Virus record (IMG/VR): IMGVR_UViG_3300043788_000078
Location: 1 to 64,000 of that record
DNA length: 64,000 nucleotides
Direction: 5' to 3' (one strand)
From: a virus
In this document: piece by piece, positions 1,059 to 7,254 of the stretch
Layout: each line of letters starts with the position of its first letter
Position numbering within the stretch: the stretch's first letter is position 1
The notes under the pieces: generated by a model
Databases searched by the model: none
Seen by the model: the letters and a program-made list of their open reading frames with translations, nothing else
Told to the model about the DNA's origin: nothing
Program-made: the position numbers and the translations under genes

Positions 1059-1405
1059 AGAAGCTCGTCAGCTTCGATGACCTGGACGGGGGACCGGCGG
1101 ACGCGACCGCGTACCTCGGCCTCGGCGGCACGTGGTACGAGATAGACCTGACCAGCGAGCACTACACGGAACTGCACTCGCTCCTGGACAAGTGGGTCGC
1201 GGCCGGGCGCGTCATCGACAACGTGCCCAGCGCCGGCCGGGGGCTCGACATCCGCCGGGAGTTCCGCGACTGGGCGGACGGTCAGGAGGGCGTAACCTAC
1301 GTCACGCCGGGCGGCAACTACAGCTACAAGCGCAAGGACGTGCGCCGGTTCCTGAAGGAAACGAGGCGGGAGGAGAGCGAATGGCCTGGGCAGCCGTTGA
1401 CCTAG
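1055..1405 (+). CDS. Lsr2-like nucleoid-associated protein
   Basis: A 116-residue protein, close to the 112 aa of Mycobacterium Lsr2. The N-terminal half, with FDDLDGGPADATAYLGLGG and YEIDLTSEH, matches the Lsr2 dimerisation domain. The C-terminal half (REFRDWADGQ, then a basic YKRKDVRRFLKE helix) is the expected position of the DNA-binding domain, but I do not see the canonical RGR AT-hook-like core. Lsr2 coats AT-rich DNA and silences foreign genes in actinobacteria. The phage copy may compact phage DNA or compete with host Lsr2. It overlaps the helicase gene by 25 bases. Confidence 0.75.
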   Translation: MKKLVSFDDLDGGPADATAYLGLGGTWYEIDLTSEHYTELHSLLDKWVAAGRVIDNVPSAGRGLDIRREFRDWADGQEGVTYVTPGGNYSYKRKDVRRFLKETRREESEWPGQPLT

Positions 1406-3249
1406 ACCCCGGGGGGACCGGCGGCCCGTGGCTCGCCGTCGGGTGCGACCGGTCCGAGTACCACCTGTGCCAGCAGGTCCCGGGGATGAACTTCCGGAAG
1501 TCAGACGGCATCTGGCGCGCGCCGCTTACCTGGGCCGCGTGGGTATCGTTGGTGACCGTGTGGGGCAGCCAGCCGCTCGACGTCCGGGACCCGCTGGCAG
1601 CGTGGGCGTCCGCGCAGTGGGACTGGGTGAAGATGCGATACAGCTTGCGCTCGGCCCTGGACGCGGGCAGCGCCGGGTTCCGCGCGGTGCTGGACGGCCT
1701 TGACCGCGAGACCGGGAAGCAGATGTACCCGTTCCAGCGCGGCGGGGTCCCGTGGCTCGCGGGCAGCGAGCGCGTTCTCCTCGGCGACCCGCAGGGGAAC
1801 GGGAAGACACCGCAGCTCATCCGGGGCATCCAGGCGGTACGCAAGGACGGGTGCGACGGCCCGTGGCTGGTGGTGGCACCGGCGTCCGCGCTGTACAACT
1901 GGAAGCGCGAGCTGGCCGCGTGGGCACCGGAGCTGTCCGTCCGGGTGATCGACGGCACCGCGCTCAAGCGCCGCAGGCAGATCATGGACGAGGGCGAGGC
2001 GGACGTCTACGTGATCGGCTGGCAGACCCTGCGGCTCCACACCCGGTTGGCCAGGTACCCGGGCAGGGAGTTCACCCGCTGCGACGAGCACGGAGGCTCG
2101 ACCGGCAAGACCGCCGCCCAGTGCGAAGTGCACGAAAAAGAGCTGAACGACATCCGCTGGGCGGGCGTCATCGCCGACGAGGCGCACCGGATGAAGGACG
2201 CCGGGTCCAAGCAGACGCGCGCCGTCTGGCATCTCGCGCACGGCGCGCGCTGCTTCTGGCCGGCCACGGGCACGCCGCTGGCGGACAGCATCGCCGACCT
2301 GTGGCCGGTCCTGCACGGGATCGACCCGCGCGCCTTCCCGTCCAAGTCCAGGTTCCTGGACCTGTACGCGGTCAAGATGATGGCCTGGAGCCACGGCACC
2401 GAGTACCTCGGCCTGCGGCCGGAGAACGAGAAGGCGTTCCATGCCAGCGTGCAGCCCTACATCCGGCGCATCCCCAAGGAGATCGCCCGGGAGGGGATGC
2501 CGGAGCGCCTTCCCGTGATGTTCCGGTACCCGGAGATGACGCCCGGCCAGGCCCGCGTGTACCGGCAGCTGAAGAAGACGATGCTCGGCGAGCTGGACTC
2601 CGCAGACATCAGCGCCGCGAACACGGCAGTCCTGTTCGGCCGCCTGTGCCAGGTGTCCGTGGCGTCCCTGGAGGTGCGCGACGGCGAGGACAGCGACGGG
2701 TTCACCAGGCAGGACGTCCGCATGGCCATGCCGTCATCCAAGGCCGACGACCTGCTGGACTTCCTGGACGACAACCCGGGCCAGCTGGTGGTGAGCGTCA
2801 ACAGCCCGCAGCTGCTGAGGCTGTGCGCCGGGAAGCTGGACGCGCGCAAGATCACGAGCTGCTCGATCCAGGGAGGGCAGAGCCCGGTCGAGCGCGACCA
2901 GGCCGTCCAGTGGTTCCAGTCCGGGGACTGCCGGGTGATACTGCTGTCGGCGGGAACGGGCGGCGAGGCGATCACGCTGACCGCGTCCGACACCCTGCTG
3001 TTCCTCCAGCCCAATCCGTCACACCAGGTTACCGAGCAGATGATCGGGCGCGTCGACCGGATCGGGCAGGAGAATCCCGTCCGCGTCGTCTACTCGATCA
3101 CGCCGGGAACCGTCGAAGAGCGCCTGTACCAGCTCTCCCGGGACAAGCACGCCCGTGCCGGCCAGGTGACGCGGGACCCTGACCTGCTCCGGTGGATGGT
3201 TACCGGGGATGCTGCCGTGGCTGCCGGCAGCGATGACACGCAGTCGTAA
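1381..3249 (+). CDS. SNF2-family DNA helicase/translocase
   Basis: A 622-residue superfamily-2 ATPase. Motif I is GDPQGNGKT (residues 135-143; an unusual form of the usual GxGKT loop), motif II is DEAH (266-269), motif III is ATGTP (295-299) and motif VI is QMIGRVDRIGQ (553-563), the SNF2 hallmark. Between motifs I and II lies a CxxH-x10-CxxH insert (234-251) that may bind zinc. Such proteins move along duplex DNA or remodel replication forks. The start at 1381 follows GGAGGAGAGCGA inside the end of the Lsr2 gene; the frame extends upstream to 1132 only as overlap with that gene. Confidence 0.85.
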   Translation: MAWAAVDLDPGGTGGPWLAVGCDRSEYHLCQQVPGMNFRKSDGIWRAPLTWAAWVSLVTVWGSQPLDVRDPLAAWASAQWDWVKMRYSLRSALDAGSAGFRAVLDGLDRETGKQMYPFQRGGVPWLAGSERVLLGDPQGNGKTPQLIRGIQAVRKDGCDGPWLVVAPASALYNWKRELAAWAPELSVRVIDGTALKRRRQIMDEGEADVYVIGWQTLRLHTRLARYPGREFTRCDEHGGSTGKTAAQCEVHEKELNDIRWAGVIADEAHRMKDAGSKQTRAVWHLAHGARCFWPATGTPLADSIADLWPVLHGIDPRAFPSKSRFLDLYAVKMMAWSHGTEYLGLRPENEKAFHASVQPYIRRIPKEIAREGMPERLPVMFRYPEMTPGQARVYRQLKKTMLGELDSADISAANTAVLFGRLCQVSVASLEVRDGEDSDGFTRQDVRMAMPSSKADDLLDFLDDNPGQLVVSVNSPQLLRLCAGKLDARKITSCSIQGGQSPVERDQAVQWFQSGDCRVILLSAGTGGEAITLTASDTLLFLQPNPSHQVTEQMIGRVDRIGQENPVRVVYSITPGTVEERLYQLSRDKHARAGQVTRDPDLLRWMVTGDAAVAAGSDDTQS

Positions 3250-4545
3250 GTGACCTAACACATCCGCCCGGTCCTGGCCTCCTGACATGCCCATCCTGTC
3301 CAGTCCAGCCCAGCCGTGCGCATCCCTGCCCTGCCTGACATCCCGTCGCGAGCCATGCCGACATGCCCTTCTACTACTGCACCCCGGCTGACTTACCCGA
3401 TCTTCCCGCGTCCGCTCCTGTCCCGCATGACTTAACCAGCCTCCTCCGGCCCGTCCGGCCCCGGCAGACAGACCTGAACGTACCCGCCATAGCCCCGCCC
3501 CCCGCTGTCCAGCCCTGTGACATACCTGCCCCAGCCTCCCCCCGGCATACTGACGTGCCCATCCCGCCCGCGCCTGTACTCACCGTGCCGACGAACCGAT
3601 CCCCGCCGCCATGACAAGCCGCGCCGCCCTAGGACTGTCCGTTCCGCGCCGACATGCCTCGCCACGCCCGTACCCTCCGGCTGACAAATCAAGCCGTGCC
3701 ATCCTGACCACCCTAGCCAAGCCTCTCCCGAACTCCGGCCGACGAACCGGTCCCTTCCTGGCCCAACCCTGCCGACAAGCCTCTCCTTTCCCTTCCGCTC
3801 CCTGCCGACAAGCCGCTCCCTGCCCATCCGTCCCTGTCCTTTGCCGACTCACCATCCCCGTGCACTCCCCGTCTGACCTGCCGACTCACCTCATCTTTTC
3901 TGACCTGCTCCCGTCCTCGCCGACAAACCACGCCCATCCCCGGCTGACTAGCCCAGCCTGACTTGCACGGGCCACCCTGACATACCCAGCTGAGCCAAAC
4001 TCGTTCCGACTTGCCCGCCCTGCACGGCCCACCGGCTTTACCGACTTACCCGTCTTGGTCCTTCCGCATCCGGCCGTGCCGACTTGCCCGTCCTACTCTG
4101 ACCACTGCGTGCCGACAAACCGCACCAATGCATTACAGGCCCTTCCGCTCCCCTCCCCGTCCAGGACGACGAACTGATCCGAACCTCACCCGTACGCGCC
4201 TGCCCGACCTCGCCCAGCCACGCCGACTAGCCAAACCTGACCCCTCCTCTATGACAGGCCAACCCACGGCACCCCTGCGCATTCCTGCGCCCCCGACACA
4301 CCATCCCAGGGCATTCCCCGCGTGACGTCCCCGCCCGAGGCGCGCCGCATATCCCGACCGGCCGATCCTTGACCGATACGACACATCTCACCTTTCCGGC
4401 CTTTCCTGACAAACCAAACCACCCCCTTCCGGCCCGACATGCCATGCCAGCGCGCACCAATCCGCCCCCTTCCGACCTGACAAGCCGCCACGCGCCGGAC
4501 CCCGTACTGACAAGCCGCCACTAGCCCATATCGGACGACTATCCC
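3250..4545 (+). repeat. 1.3 kb non-coding array of about 40 short same-direction motifs
   Basis: No convincing gene. The forward strand is strongly G-poor and C-rich, and carries about 40 degenerate copies of a core (C/T)GAC(A/T)(A/T)(A/G)CC. Examples are CCGACAAGCC at 3771 and 3804, CTGACAAGCC at 4477 and 4507, and CCGACTTGCCC at 4006 and 4078. All point the same way, spaced irregularly at about 15-60 bases with unrelated pyrimidine-rich DNA between. It ends just before the promoter of the recombination operon. Possible roles are an iteron-like replication, partition or packaging site, or primase/lagging-strand start sites (the other strand shows GTC). Confidence 0.75.
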
Positions 4546-4551
4546 TTTGCT

Positions 4552-4603: not shown

Positions 4604-5428
4604 ATGTCACTCCCGTTCGAGAAGTACCAGGCAAAAGCGTGGCCGTTCCGGTACCGCGCCAGCATCCTCGTCGAGCAGCTCAACGGCGGCGTGCCCGCCC
4701 AGGAGAAGACCGCCGAGGCGTGGATACGGGCCAAGCTGAAGGACCTGCGCAGTCCCGCCGAGGTGCAGCAGCTCGTCGACCAGACCAAGGCCGAGCTGCG
4801 CGAGTCGCATGCCGCTGCGCGCGGCCAGGCGGAAGTCGCCGAGGATTTCCAGAGAGAGCTGGGCGAGCGCGGTGACGTCACCGTCCTTACCCCGATCGAG
4901 CTGGGCGACGATGAGCTGAACAACCTGGCGATTGCCAAGGCCGCGCAGGACATGGCCGGGCTCAACATGTTCAAGCGCACGCCGGCGGGCGTGCTGTACG
5001 TTGAGGGCCGCCAGGTCAAGGCGGCGCTCAAGGAGGCCGTGTCCGTCGCGGCCAACGCCGGCAAGGTCAGCACCAAGGGCTGGGGCAACCCGGACAACGC
5101 CGCGTACAAGAAGCAGCTCAAGGGCTGGTTCCCGGAGCACGTGTTCGTGCCGGAGAAGACCCTCCCGCTGTCCCGGGAGGACGGCAGCGAGGTCACCGAC
5201 CCCGACGGAATCCTCCAGAAGTTCGTGCACACGCACCGGGGCGACGCGATCGGGTACGAGGAGTACGTGGAGAACGCGGTCGTCCGGTTCACCGTCAAGA
5301 CCGATGTCGAGATCTCGGACAAGGACTGGGCGATGATCTGGCTGACCGGCCAGGAACAGGGCATCGGCGCTAGCCGCAGCCAGGGGTTCGGCACGTACAC
5401 GGTCACGGAATGGGAAAAGGCCCGGTAG
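4604..5428 (+). CDS. RAMP-superfamily (Cas7-like) protein, orphan phage form
   Basis: A 274-residue protein. Near the C-terminus is GIGASRSQGFGTY, which fits the glycine-rich loop pattern GxGxxRxxGxG of RAMP-fold RNA-binding proteins such as Cas7. The segment VEGRQVKAALKEA is typical of the fold's first conserved helix. A helical insert of about 60 residues (30-90) is charged. It is followed at once by a Cas4-like nuclease, a Sak4-like ATPase and a ssDNA-binding protein, so a role in recombination or nucleic-acid binding is likely. No CRISPR array or effector genes are present. The assignment rests on motifs only. Confidence 0.5.
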   Translation: MSLPFEKYQAKAWPFRYRASILVEQLNGGVPAQEKTAEAWIRAKLKDLRSPAEVQQLVDQTKAELRESHAAARGQAEVAEDFQRELGERGDVTVLTPIELGDDELNNLAIAKAAQDMAGLNMFKRTPAGVLYVEGRQVKAALKEAVSVAANAGKVSTKGWGNPDNAAYKKQLKGWFPEHVFVPEKTLPLSREDGSEVTDPDGILQKFVHTHRGDAIGYEEYVENAVVRFTVKTDVEISDKDWAMIWLTGQEQGIGASRSQGFGTYTVTEWEKAR

Positions 5429-6414
5429 TGAGCAGCGGAACAGTGGCGATCTCCAATTCGGAAATATCCACTTTCGATAGATGCCGCCGGAAATGGTATT
5501 TGGCATACTACCTGGGGATGGTGCCGTCGGACGATCCGCCCGTCGGCAACGCGATCCTGGGGACGCGGGTGCACGCGGCACTGGAAGGTTATTACGGATA
5601 CCAGCTCGACCCGTCCGACGTCCTGAACGTGCTGTACGCGCTTGAGGCTGACGCCAGCCCGGACTGGAAGACAGAGCTGATGGCCGAGCGCGAGATAGCC
5701 GTGACCATGGTGACCGGGTACCTGGAATGGGTCGCCGAGACCGGGGAGGACGCGAACCTGCGCGTGGTCGCGGTCGAGCAGGACGCAGAGGTCCCGCTGC
5801 CGGGGATGCCCGGGGTCCTGCTCAAGGCCCGGATGGACCAGGTGGTTTACAGCGAGGAGACCGGCATGCTGTCCTTCCTGGACCACAAGACTGCCGCGAC
5901 CTTCGATTCGCACGACATCATGGACCTGAACCCCCAGTTCAAGTTCTACGCGATAGTCCAGCGGCTGCTGGCCGGCCCGGACGGCCCCCCGGTGTCCGGC
6001 GGCATCATCAACACGCTGCGCCGCGTCAAGCGCACGGAGAGGTCGAAACCGCCGTACTACCGGCGCGACGGCTTCCGGTACAACGACGTTCAGCTCATCG
6101 CGGCCCTGGAGAGGGTCACCGCCATCGCAGGGCAGATCCGGCAGGCCCGCGCGATGCTCGATGACACGTACCAGCGCGCGGGCGGGGACCTGCACGCGGT
6201 CAACGCGCTCCAGCGGCGCGAGCTGTACCCGTCTCCCATCGCGACGCTGTGCCGGTGGGACTGCCCGTTCGTGGCGGTCTGCCCGGCGATGGACGACGGG
6301 TCGGACTGGCCCGGAATCATGACCAGGTCCGGTAAGTACCGCCAGGACAACCCTTACCGGTATTACAGGAACGACCCGCTGCGTGCCGTCCGGGATGCGC
6401 TCGGCAAGGGGTAG
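5428..6414 (+). CDS. Cas4/RecB-like PD-(D/E)XK exonuclease with Fe-S cysteines
   Basis: About 328 residues. The N-terminus has SNSEISTFDRCRRKW, the RecB/Cas4 opening motif with the first cluster cysteine. Then come GTRVHAALEGYY, ARMDQV and FLDHKTA (catalytic Asp and DxK), and a C-terminal CRWDCPFVAVC triplet. Four cysteines in this arrangement suit a 4Fe-4S cluster as in Cas4/AddB. It probably resects DNA ends for single-strand annealing. The GTG at 5428 overlaps the upstream stop (TAGTG); an in-frame ATG at 5410 is the alternative start. Confidence 0.75.
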   Translation: MSSGTVAISNSEISTFDRCRRKWYLAYYLGMVPSDDPPVGNAILGTRVHAALEGYYGYQLDPSDVLNVLYALEADASPDWKTELMAEREIAVTMVTGYLEWVAETGEDANLRVVAVEQDAEVPLPGMPGVLLKARMDQVVYSEETGMLSFLDHKTAATFDSHDIMDLNPQFKFYAIVQRLLAGPDGPPVSGGIINTLRRVKRTERSKPPYYRRDGFRYNDVQLIAALERVTAIAGQIRQARAMLDDTYQRAGGDLHAVNALQRRELYPSPIATLCRWDCPFVAVCPAMDDGSDWPGIMTRSGKYRQDNPYRYYRNDPLRAVRDALGKG

Positions 6415-6444: not shown

Positions 6445-7254
6445 ATGTCACAGCCTGCGGTAGCTATCGGCCAGGCACACCCTGCGCGTGCCCGGCAGCG
6501 AAAGCAGGGCCTGTCCTTCCTGCTTCACGCGCCGGCCAAGGCCGGCAAGTCGAGCCTGGCGGACAGCGGGCCGGCCCCGCGCCTGATCATGGATATCGAG
6601 GGGACGTCGTGGCTGACGCCCAGCAGGAAAGCGTACTGGGACCCGATGCGCGAGCCGCCGCCGCAGCAGGAGAGGCACCTGACGGCCGGGTACGGGCAGC
6701 CGAGCGTCACGGTGGCGTGGGAGTCGTGCATCGTGCTCATCCGCGCGGCGCGCGAGATCGACCGCGTGTACCAGGTGCTCAACTCCGGGCGTCACCCGTT
6801 CAACGCCCTGTCGGTCGACTCTGTCACCGAGATGCAGCAGCGCGTGATAGACGAGCTGTCACCGGGCACCGGGAAGGTAGACCGCGACCAGTGGGGCATC
6901 CTGCTCCGCAAGATCAACAGCATGGTCCGCGCATACCGGGACCTGCTGACACACCCCTCCAGGCCACTGTGGTCGGTGGTGTTCGTAGCCGGGACCACCG
7001 AGCACAACGGCAAGTGGCGGCCGATGGTGCAGGGCCAGGCCAGGGACTCCCTGCCCTATTACGTCGACATTCTCGGCTACCTGCACGCCAACGCCGACAA
7101 CACCCGCGACCTGCTCATCGGGCCGCATCCCAGCTTCGAGACCGGGGAGCGCGTCGGCGGCAGGCTGCCGTACTCGCTGCGGATCGGTTATCCCGGCCGC
7201 GTTCAGGGCTGGACGATCGAGGACATGCTCAAGCAGGTACTCAAGGAAGGATGA
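6445..7254 (+). CDS. Sak4-like RecA-fold ATPase (single-strand annealing helper)
   Basis: A 269-residue P-loop ATPase. Walker A is APAKAGKSS (residues 29-37) and a Walker-B-like strand ALSVDSVTEM follows at about 118. Sak4 proteins are short RecA-core ATPases that promote annealing with phage SSBs. The neighbours fit: a nuclease upstream and a ssDNA-binding protein directly downstream. Start ATG at 6445 follows GAGGGAGCTGATAG. The stop TGA overlaps an ATG (ATGA) six bases before the chosen start of the next gene. Confidence 0.65.
   Translation: MSQPAVAIGQAHPARARQRKQGLSFLLHAPAKAGKSSLADSGPAPRLIMDIEGTSWLTPSRKAYWDPMREPPPQQERHLTAGYGQPSVTVAWESCIVLIRAAREIDRVYQVLNSGRHPFNALSVDSVTEMQQRVIDELSPGTGKVDRDQWGILLRKINSMVRAYRDLLTHPSRPLWSVVFVAGTTEHNGKWRPMVQGQARDSLPYYVDILGYLHANADNTRDLLIGPHPSFETGERVGGRLPYSLRIGYPGRVQGWTIEDMLKQVLKEG

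Follow-up and report, generated by a model that had tools for sequence, protein, structure and literature searches.

Pentanucleotide arrays and an adjoining RAMP-like protein form a widespread two-part system in phages

The array and its gene neighbourhood

The window, the whole stretch of 64,000 nucleotides analysed here, comes from the 71 kb virus record IMGVR_UViG_3300043788_000078 and carries a C-rich, G-poor array of 5-nt units at positions 3252–4548 of the + strand. The array starts 2 nt past the stop codon of a gene for an SNF2-type helicase (1132–3249, + strand; Pfam SNF2, 7e-29), and 55 nt beyond its end lies the ATG of a gene for a RAMP-like protein of the Cas7/Csm3 type (4604–5428, + strand; 274 aa), which on fold, profile and neighbourhood is Vipr-like and the predicted partner of the array RNA. 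A Cas4-like PD-(D/E)XK exonuclease (5410–6414, + strand; Pfam PDDEXK_1, 5e-23) in a replication/recombination cluster and a Sak4-like recombinase (6445–7254, + strand; phrog_124, 3e-18) follow; both are context only, as is the helicase, which lies outside the system. The nearest relative, L002, keeps the same helicase-Cas4-Sak4-SSB cluster with neither the array nor the RAMP, so the two form a cassette; a short gene that by eye looks to be of the NADAR/YbiA type stands in their place (L002 3822–4307).

The initial annotation had reported about 40 GAC-core motifs, all in one direction, in a gene-free, G-poor stretch of 1.3 kb, and the counts bear this out. Between positions 3250 and 4545, the forward strand has 51 copies of GAC, compared with 19 on the reverse strand and 20 ± 4 in shuffles. 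YGACWWRCC is present at 20 forward sites and at no reverse one (expected, 0.1), and there are 606 C to 256 G; within the whole record, YGACNNRCC is concentrated at the array. The GAC core is real but supplies only the punctuation, the 5-nt period of NNNMC units having been missed. Autocorrelation of C reveals this period (z = 7.9 at lag 5 and 6.4 at lag 10), and the GAC-GAC distances modulo 5 cluster at 3 (19 of 50) and 4 (17 of 50). The stretch parses as a chain of NNN(C/A)C units in which a 3-nt GAC unit, one of about 40, recurs roughly every six units, after C or T and with WWRCC preferred in the unit that follows; the motif as originally described is GAC-WWR-CC, a phase-setting 3-nt unit plus the first NNNMC unit. 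A model of this grammar scores 186.6 on the window; dinucleotide shuffles reach no more than 50, and shuffling only the gaps, with all GACs kept, gives no more than 78.

The stretch had been judged neither coding nor CRISPR, and both judgements stand. No convincing coding sequence was found in it, and a class 1 CRISPR-Cas locus was rejected on account of the short (3–5 nt), degenerate repeats and the lack of direct repeats, spacers and any other Cas effector gene. An Rfam scan of the array stretch returned no convincing family. Folding energies indicate little structure in the sense RNA (−21 kcal per 120 nt, vs −41 for the antisense strand and −48 for a coding control).

Searches of Pfam, PHROGs and NCBIfam with the RAMP of the window gave no family at threshold, and PADLOC gave only a weak match to Cas6_IIIa (E = 0.003). 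An AF2 model (pLDDT 86.7) places the protein with class 1 CRISPR-Cas backbone proteins (Cas7, Csm3 and Csm5 of types III and VII), with type VII Cas7 and type III Csm3 chains as the best Foldseek matches (E = 1e-6; probability, 1.0; TM on target, ~0.5), and its matches in BFVD are mostly unnamed viral proteins, one of them labelled a RAMP protein. Two segments resemble class 1 proteins by eye, LYIEGRQLKAALKE being similar to IPGSSLKGALR and GIGASRSQGFG to the glycine loop, whereas the 5-nt period of the array differs from the 6 nt of those systems. At its presumed position, the catalytic Asp of Csm3 is not conserved in the RAMP family alignment.

Recurrence, anatomy and turnover of the arrays

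The pairing of array and RAMP is genuine and widespread, a two-part system that recurs in dozens of unrelated phages. In a search of 50,697 phage records the sole relative of the RAMP belongs to ‘Microcystis phage Mae-JY09’ (29%), where a 400-bp stretch with the NNNMC/GAC grammar lies directly behind the RAMP gene. This region (PP395641.1 37713–38976, L022) has ~70% GC and its RAMP and array are actinophage-like; the host label looks doubtful. A profile search added marine contigs (L024–L028) with the RAMP adjoining an array, such that the grammar is present in three unrelated lineages. When IMG/VR was scanned with the DNA grammar alone and no protein query, 59 stretches were returned, most of them real arrays (~45 array-bearing), and members of the RAMP family (E down to 1e-72) lie beside them. 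The RAMP-like gene that had been noted next door in the window recurs, one per record, in 28 of the 35 array-bearing records, in one case (G021) in two pieces split by a frame break. The array-bearing records without it are fragments of 5–28 kb, G011, in which the array is cut by the contig end, and G031, which has weak arrays only; none of three array-less relatives has a RAMP. A pattern scan of a bacterial genome collection gave 63 matches, nearly all due to chance, with only three scoring >40; the chance-level matches lack a RAMP, whereas it is present with each of the three strong arrays, which lie in prophages of Nonomuraea wenchangensis, N. basaltis and Streptacidiphilus carbonis. The link between array and RAMP is near-obligate.

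Loci L050 and L034 hold the most divergent RAMPs (23–24% identity) with arrays still nearby, and A predominates at unit position 4 in L034, as it does in the marine loci. The longest candidate array, a possible 4.5 kb (L055 7281–11841), adjoins a RAMP gene that is interrupted by an N or a frame break.

Across a set of 49 arrays (39.5 kb; 1035 GAC units), 6786 of ~7290 units are exactly 5 nt long. Unit positions 1–3 are near-random, while C makes up 71% of position 4 and 96% of position 5, and the commonest block between GACs has six units (33 nt). The arrays are continuous over 0.3–1.9 kb and run in the direction of the adjacent RAMP gene in 28 of 33 cases (28:5), with some lying downstream of, or opposite to, genes. 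In most loci a gene for a helical protein, B (or C in one clade), adjoins the RAMP or array, with no recognisable counterpart in the window; loci with B are ordered B-array-RAMP or B-RAMP-array with gaps of a few nucleotides. Gene B (L036:4858–5370, L069:275–790 and L024:5466–5972) weakly matches phrog_4604, and its AF2 model (pLDDT 87) found no fold match in the PDB. The helical family C replaces it in the Nonomuraea/L041 clade (L086:5956–6384).

A phage of 90.8 kb, G001 (IMGVR_UViG_3300037258_000549; L163–L167), carries nine arrays on both strands, three of them antisense between structural genes. A −10-like hexamer lies 25–62 nt upstream on the C-rich side in all nine arrays and on the opposite side in none, compared with a background of 10% in random 100-nt windows, and several of the arrays are preceded by a GCC...GGC leader hairpin and followed by stable hairpins. 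No shared 3′ tail was seen in the nine flanks, although hairpins follow several arrays. Because the promoter-like signals sit on the C-rich side, it is this strand that is probably transcribed, with a C-rich RNA as the product.

Random drift of the motif among related phages is not seen, and C and GAC are strongly conserved in sister phages. In four sister-phage comparisons these positions differ by 0–2% and the NNN positions by 10–17% (Fisher p, 1e-3 to 1e-8), counts that were taken from alignable blocks only, which favours conservation; the fixed positions are under selection. The sister arrays differ by the gain or loss of whole blocks and by steps of 5, 10 and 15 nt. Among L041, L045 and L086, NNN changes by 10–14%, vs 25–37% at four-fold sites of the RAMP gene, and since the triplets are slower than the four-fold sites they may be constrained there. 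Between L024 and L028, NNN divergence (17%, vs 7–20% at four-fold sites) is close to the silent-site rate, as would be the case if NNN merely filled space.

Relation to known RNA-guided systems

The initial annotation could name no phage element of this type, but one of the same kind with a different repeat has been published in VIPR, the Viral Interference Programmable Repeat (PMC13142463; bioRxiv 2026.04.26.720920). In VIPR as described there, a phage RAMP acts with RNAs of tandem YNNGG repeats (vrRNAs; ~100 nt, 9–16 repeats, structured 3′ tail), the NN pair with DNA, each unit passing over one target base, and competing phages are repressed by the complex. The present loci have in common with VIPR a single small phage-encoded RAMP with a glycine loop, long non-coding arrays of tandem pentanucleotides in the intergenic DNA next to it, an alternation of conserved and hypervariable bases and, in many loci, a short adjoining gene that is a candidate accessory gene. 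The RAMP also has remote homology to the SUSP1, Trine, Pipp and LESphi2 proteins: in hhalign, a profile of these aligned with the RAMP (A3) globally over 186 columns (E = 1e-4; score, 36.1; probability, 57%), the best of 30 column-shuffled controls scoring 18.8, about half as much, and single sequences giving a weaker relation than the profiles. On this alignment the array-linked RAMP is a remote homologue of Vipr.

There are also differences from VIPR, in that the sense unit of the present arrays is NNN(C/A)C, not YNNGG (GGY/NN), GAC punctuates them every ~6 units, and they are continuous over their whole length as compared with the ~100-nt vrRNAs, with no 3′ tail recognised. On these grounds we call the array and RAMP a VIPR-like variant with a different repeat; as there are seven published VIPR types and ‘a related consensus’ is allowed among them (PMC13142463), the system is possibly one of the published types. 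The array of Gordonia phage Trine reads NNGGC on the vipr strand, its complement being mostly NNGCC. A reading of the present arrays as the complement of YNNGG was rejected; it needs a purine at unit position 3, which is seen in ~49% of units, and the promoter-like signals are on the C-rich side.

TIGR-Tas (PMC12045711) likewise combines a compact, phage-borne guide array with one protein, and its natural targets have also been hard to find. Its Tas proteins have a Nop domain and its arrays consist of 8–12-nt dual repeats with 9-nt spacers (PMC12045711), and membership was rejected, the present protein being a RAMP without a Nop domain and the arrays being without dual 8–12-nt repeats.

Candidate function and its meaning

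By analogy with VIPR, it is likely that the array RNA and the RAMP form a programmable, VIPR-like RNA-guided complex that binds nucleic acid. The array would be transcribed into a C-rich, largely unstructured non-coding RNA of tandem NNN(C/A)C units, which GAC would divide into blocks of ~33 nt. Most likely the Cas7/Vipr-type RAMP would polymerise along this RNA so that each 5-nt unit takes one subunit; the GACWWRCC start and the invariant C's would serve as protein contacts, and the variable bases would stay available for pairing. The complex would then bind, without cutting, what is probably the DNA of competing phages or prophages. The RNA binding, register, guiding and target in this scheme are ones that we infer. 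A further proposal, tentative and of a little less than even weight, is that the system uses a separate RNA-guide code, in which a Cas7/Vipr-like protein reads NNN(C/A)C while leaving three bases of each unit free and GAC is an in-line guide boundary, allowing one transcript of 1–2 kb to give dozens of short guides; this would be a VIPR-like lineage with an alphabet and decoding rule unlike GGY/NN.

Targets were sought under several readings. Blocks from the arrays (n = 197) searched against their own genomes in 5-nt-collinear fashion, triplet-masked and in full, gave no target, as did 536 blocks searched against 1.07 Mb of kindred phage DNA with 5-nt-collinear and VIPR-like readings, twelve NN/NNN-plus-skip readings per block and exact words of eight units, including words across GAC. 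Five blocks searched against the host genomes of three prophages, resident prophages included, found only themselves and a 2-mismatch match in an ABC-transporter region that was judged to be chance. One block gave no target in 343 genomes of the family of N. wenchangensis, and four blocks or patterns in IMG/VR found only their own arrays or nothing. As no reading tried yielded a target, the guide function is one that we infer.

The empty searches count towards the main rival, in which the array RNA does no guiding but acts as a scaffold or sponge, seeding a RAMP filament or titrating out a host factor, with NNN serving as spacing only. The near-random composition of NNN and its near-silent divergence between L024 and L028 agree with such a role, but the slower change of the triplets among L041, L045 and L086 suggests constraint, unless arrays were recently exchanged, and VIPR, with the same architecture, has been shown to be guide-based (PMC13142463); overall, a scaffold or sponge is considered unlikely.

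A regulatory RNA was rightly listed among the possible roles initially suggested; the other suggestions, an iteron array, lagging-strand priming from GTC or a partition site, fared poorly, as the element travels with a protein of the Cas7-like, RNA-binding type and not with a replication origin. The position within a phage replication/recombination cluster, the strand asymmetry and the nine copies on both strands of G001 would suit an element acting as DNA (iteron origin, primase template, partition or recombination site). L002, however, has the same cluster without an array, the partner has the fold of a Cas7-type RNA-backbone protein, and iterons do not resemble the arrays in 5-nt grammar or block turnover. 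We know of no reason for such a grammar in primase or iteron biology. Since the C-rich strand carries promoter-like and leader signals, and stand-alone copies carry them on a single strand, these roles are unsupported and an element acting as DNA is very improbable. More improbable still is a leader or Rho-utilisation site causing Rho-dependent termination before the Cas4/Sak4/SSB operon; the sense RNA is suitably C-rich, G-poor and unstructured, but Rho sites require neither a strict 5-nt phase, GAC punctuation and 0.3–1.9 kb of length nor a RAMP, and arrays also occur downstream of, or opposite to, genes.

With the VIPR-like reading preferred, an unexplained phage repeat stretch becomes tied to a Cas7-like protein, and dozens of loci join the most recent class of RNA-guided systems known, one proposed to precede CRISPR. 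The bare DNA grammar serves as a finder in its own right, having recovered the array and RAMP system with no protein as query. If reading of the C-rich code differs from that of GGY/NN, comparison of the two would separate the features of non-contiguous guide reading that the protein fixes from those that can change.
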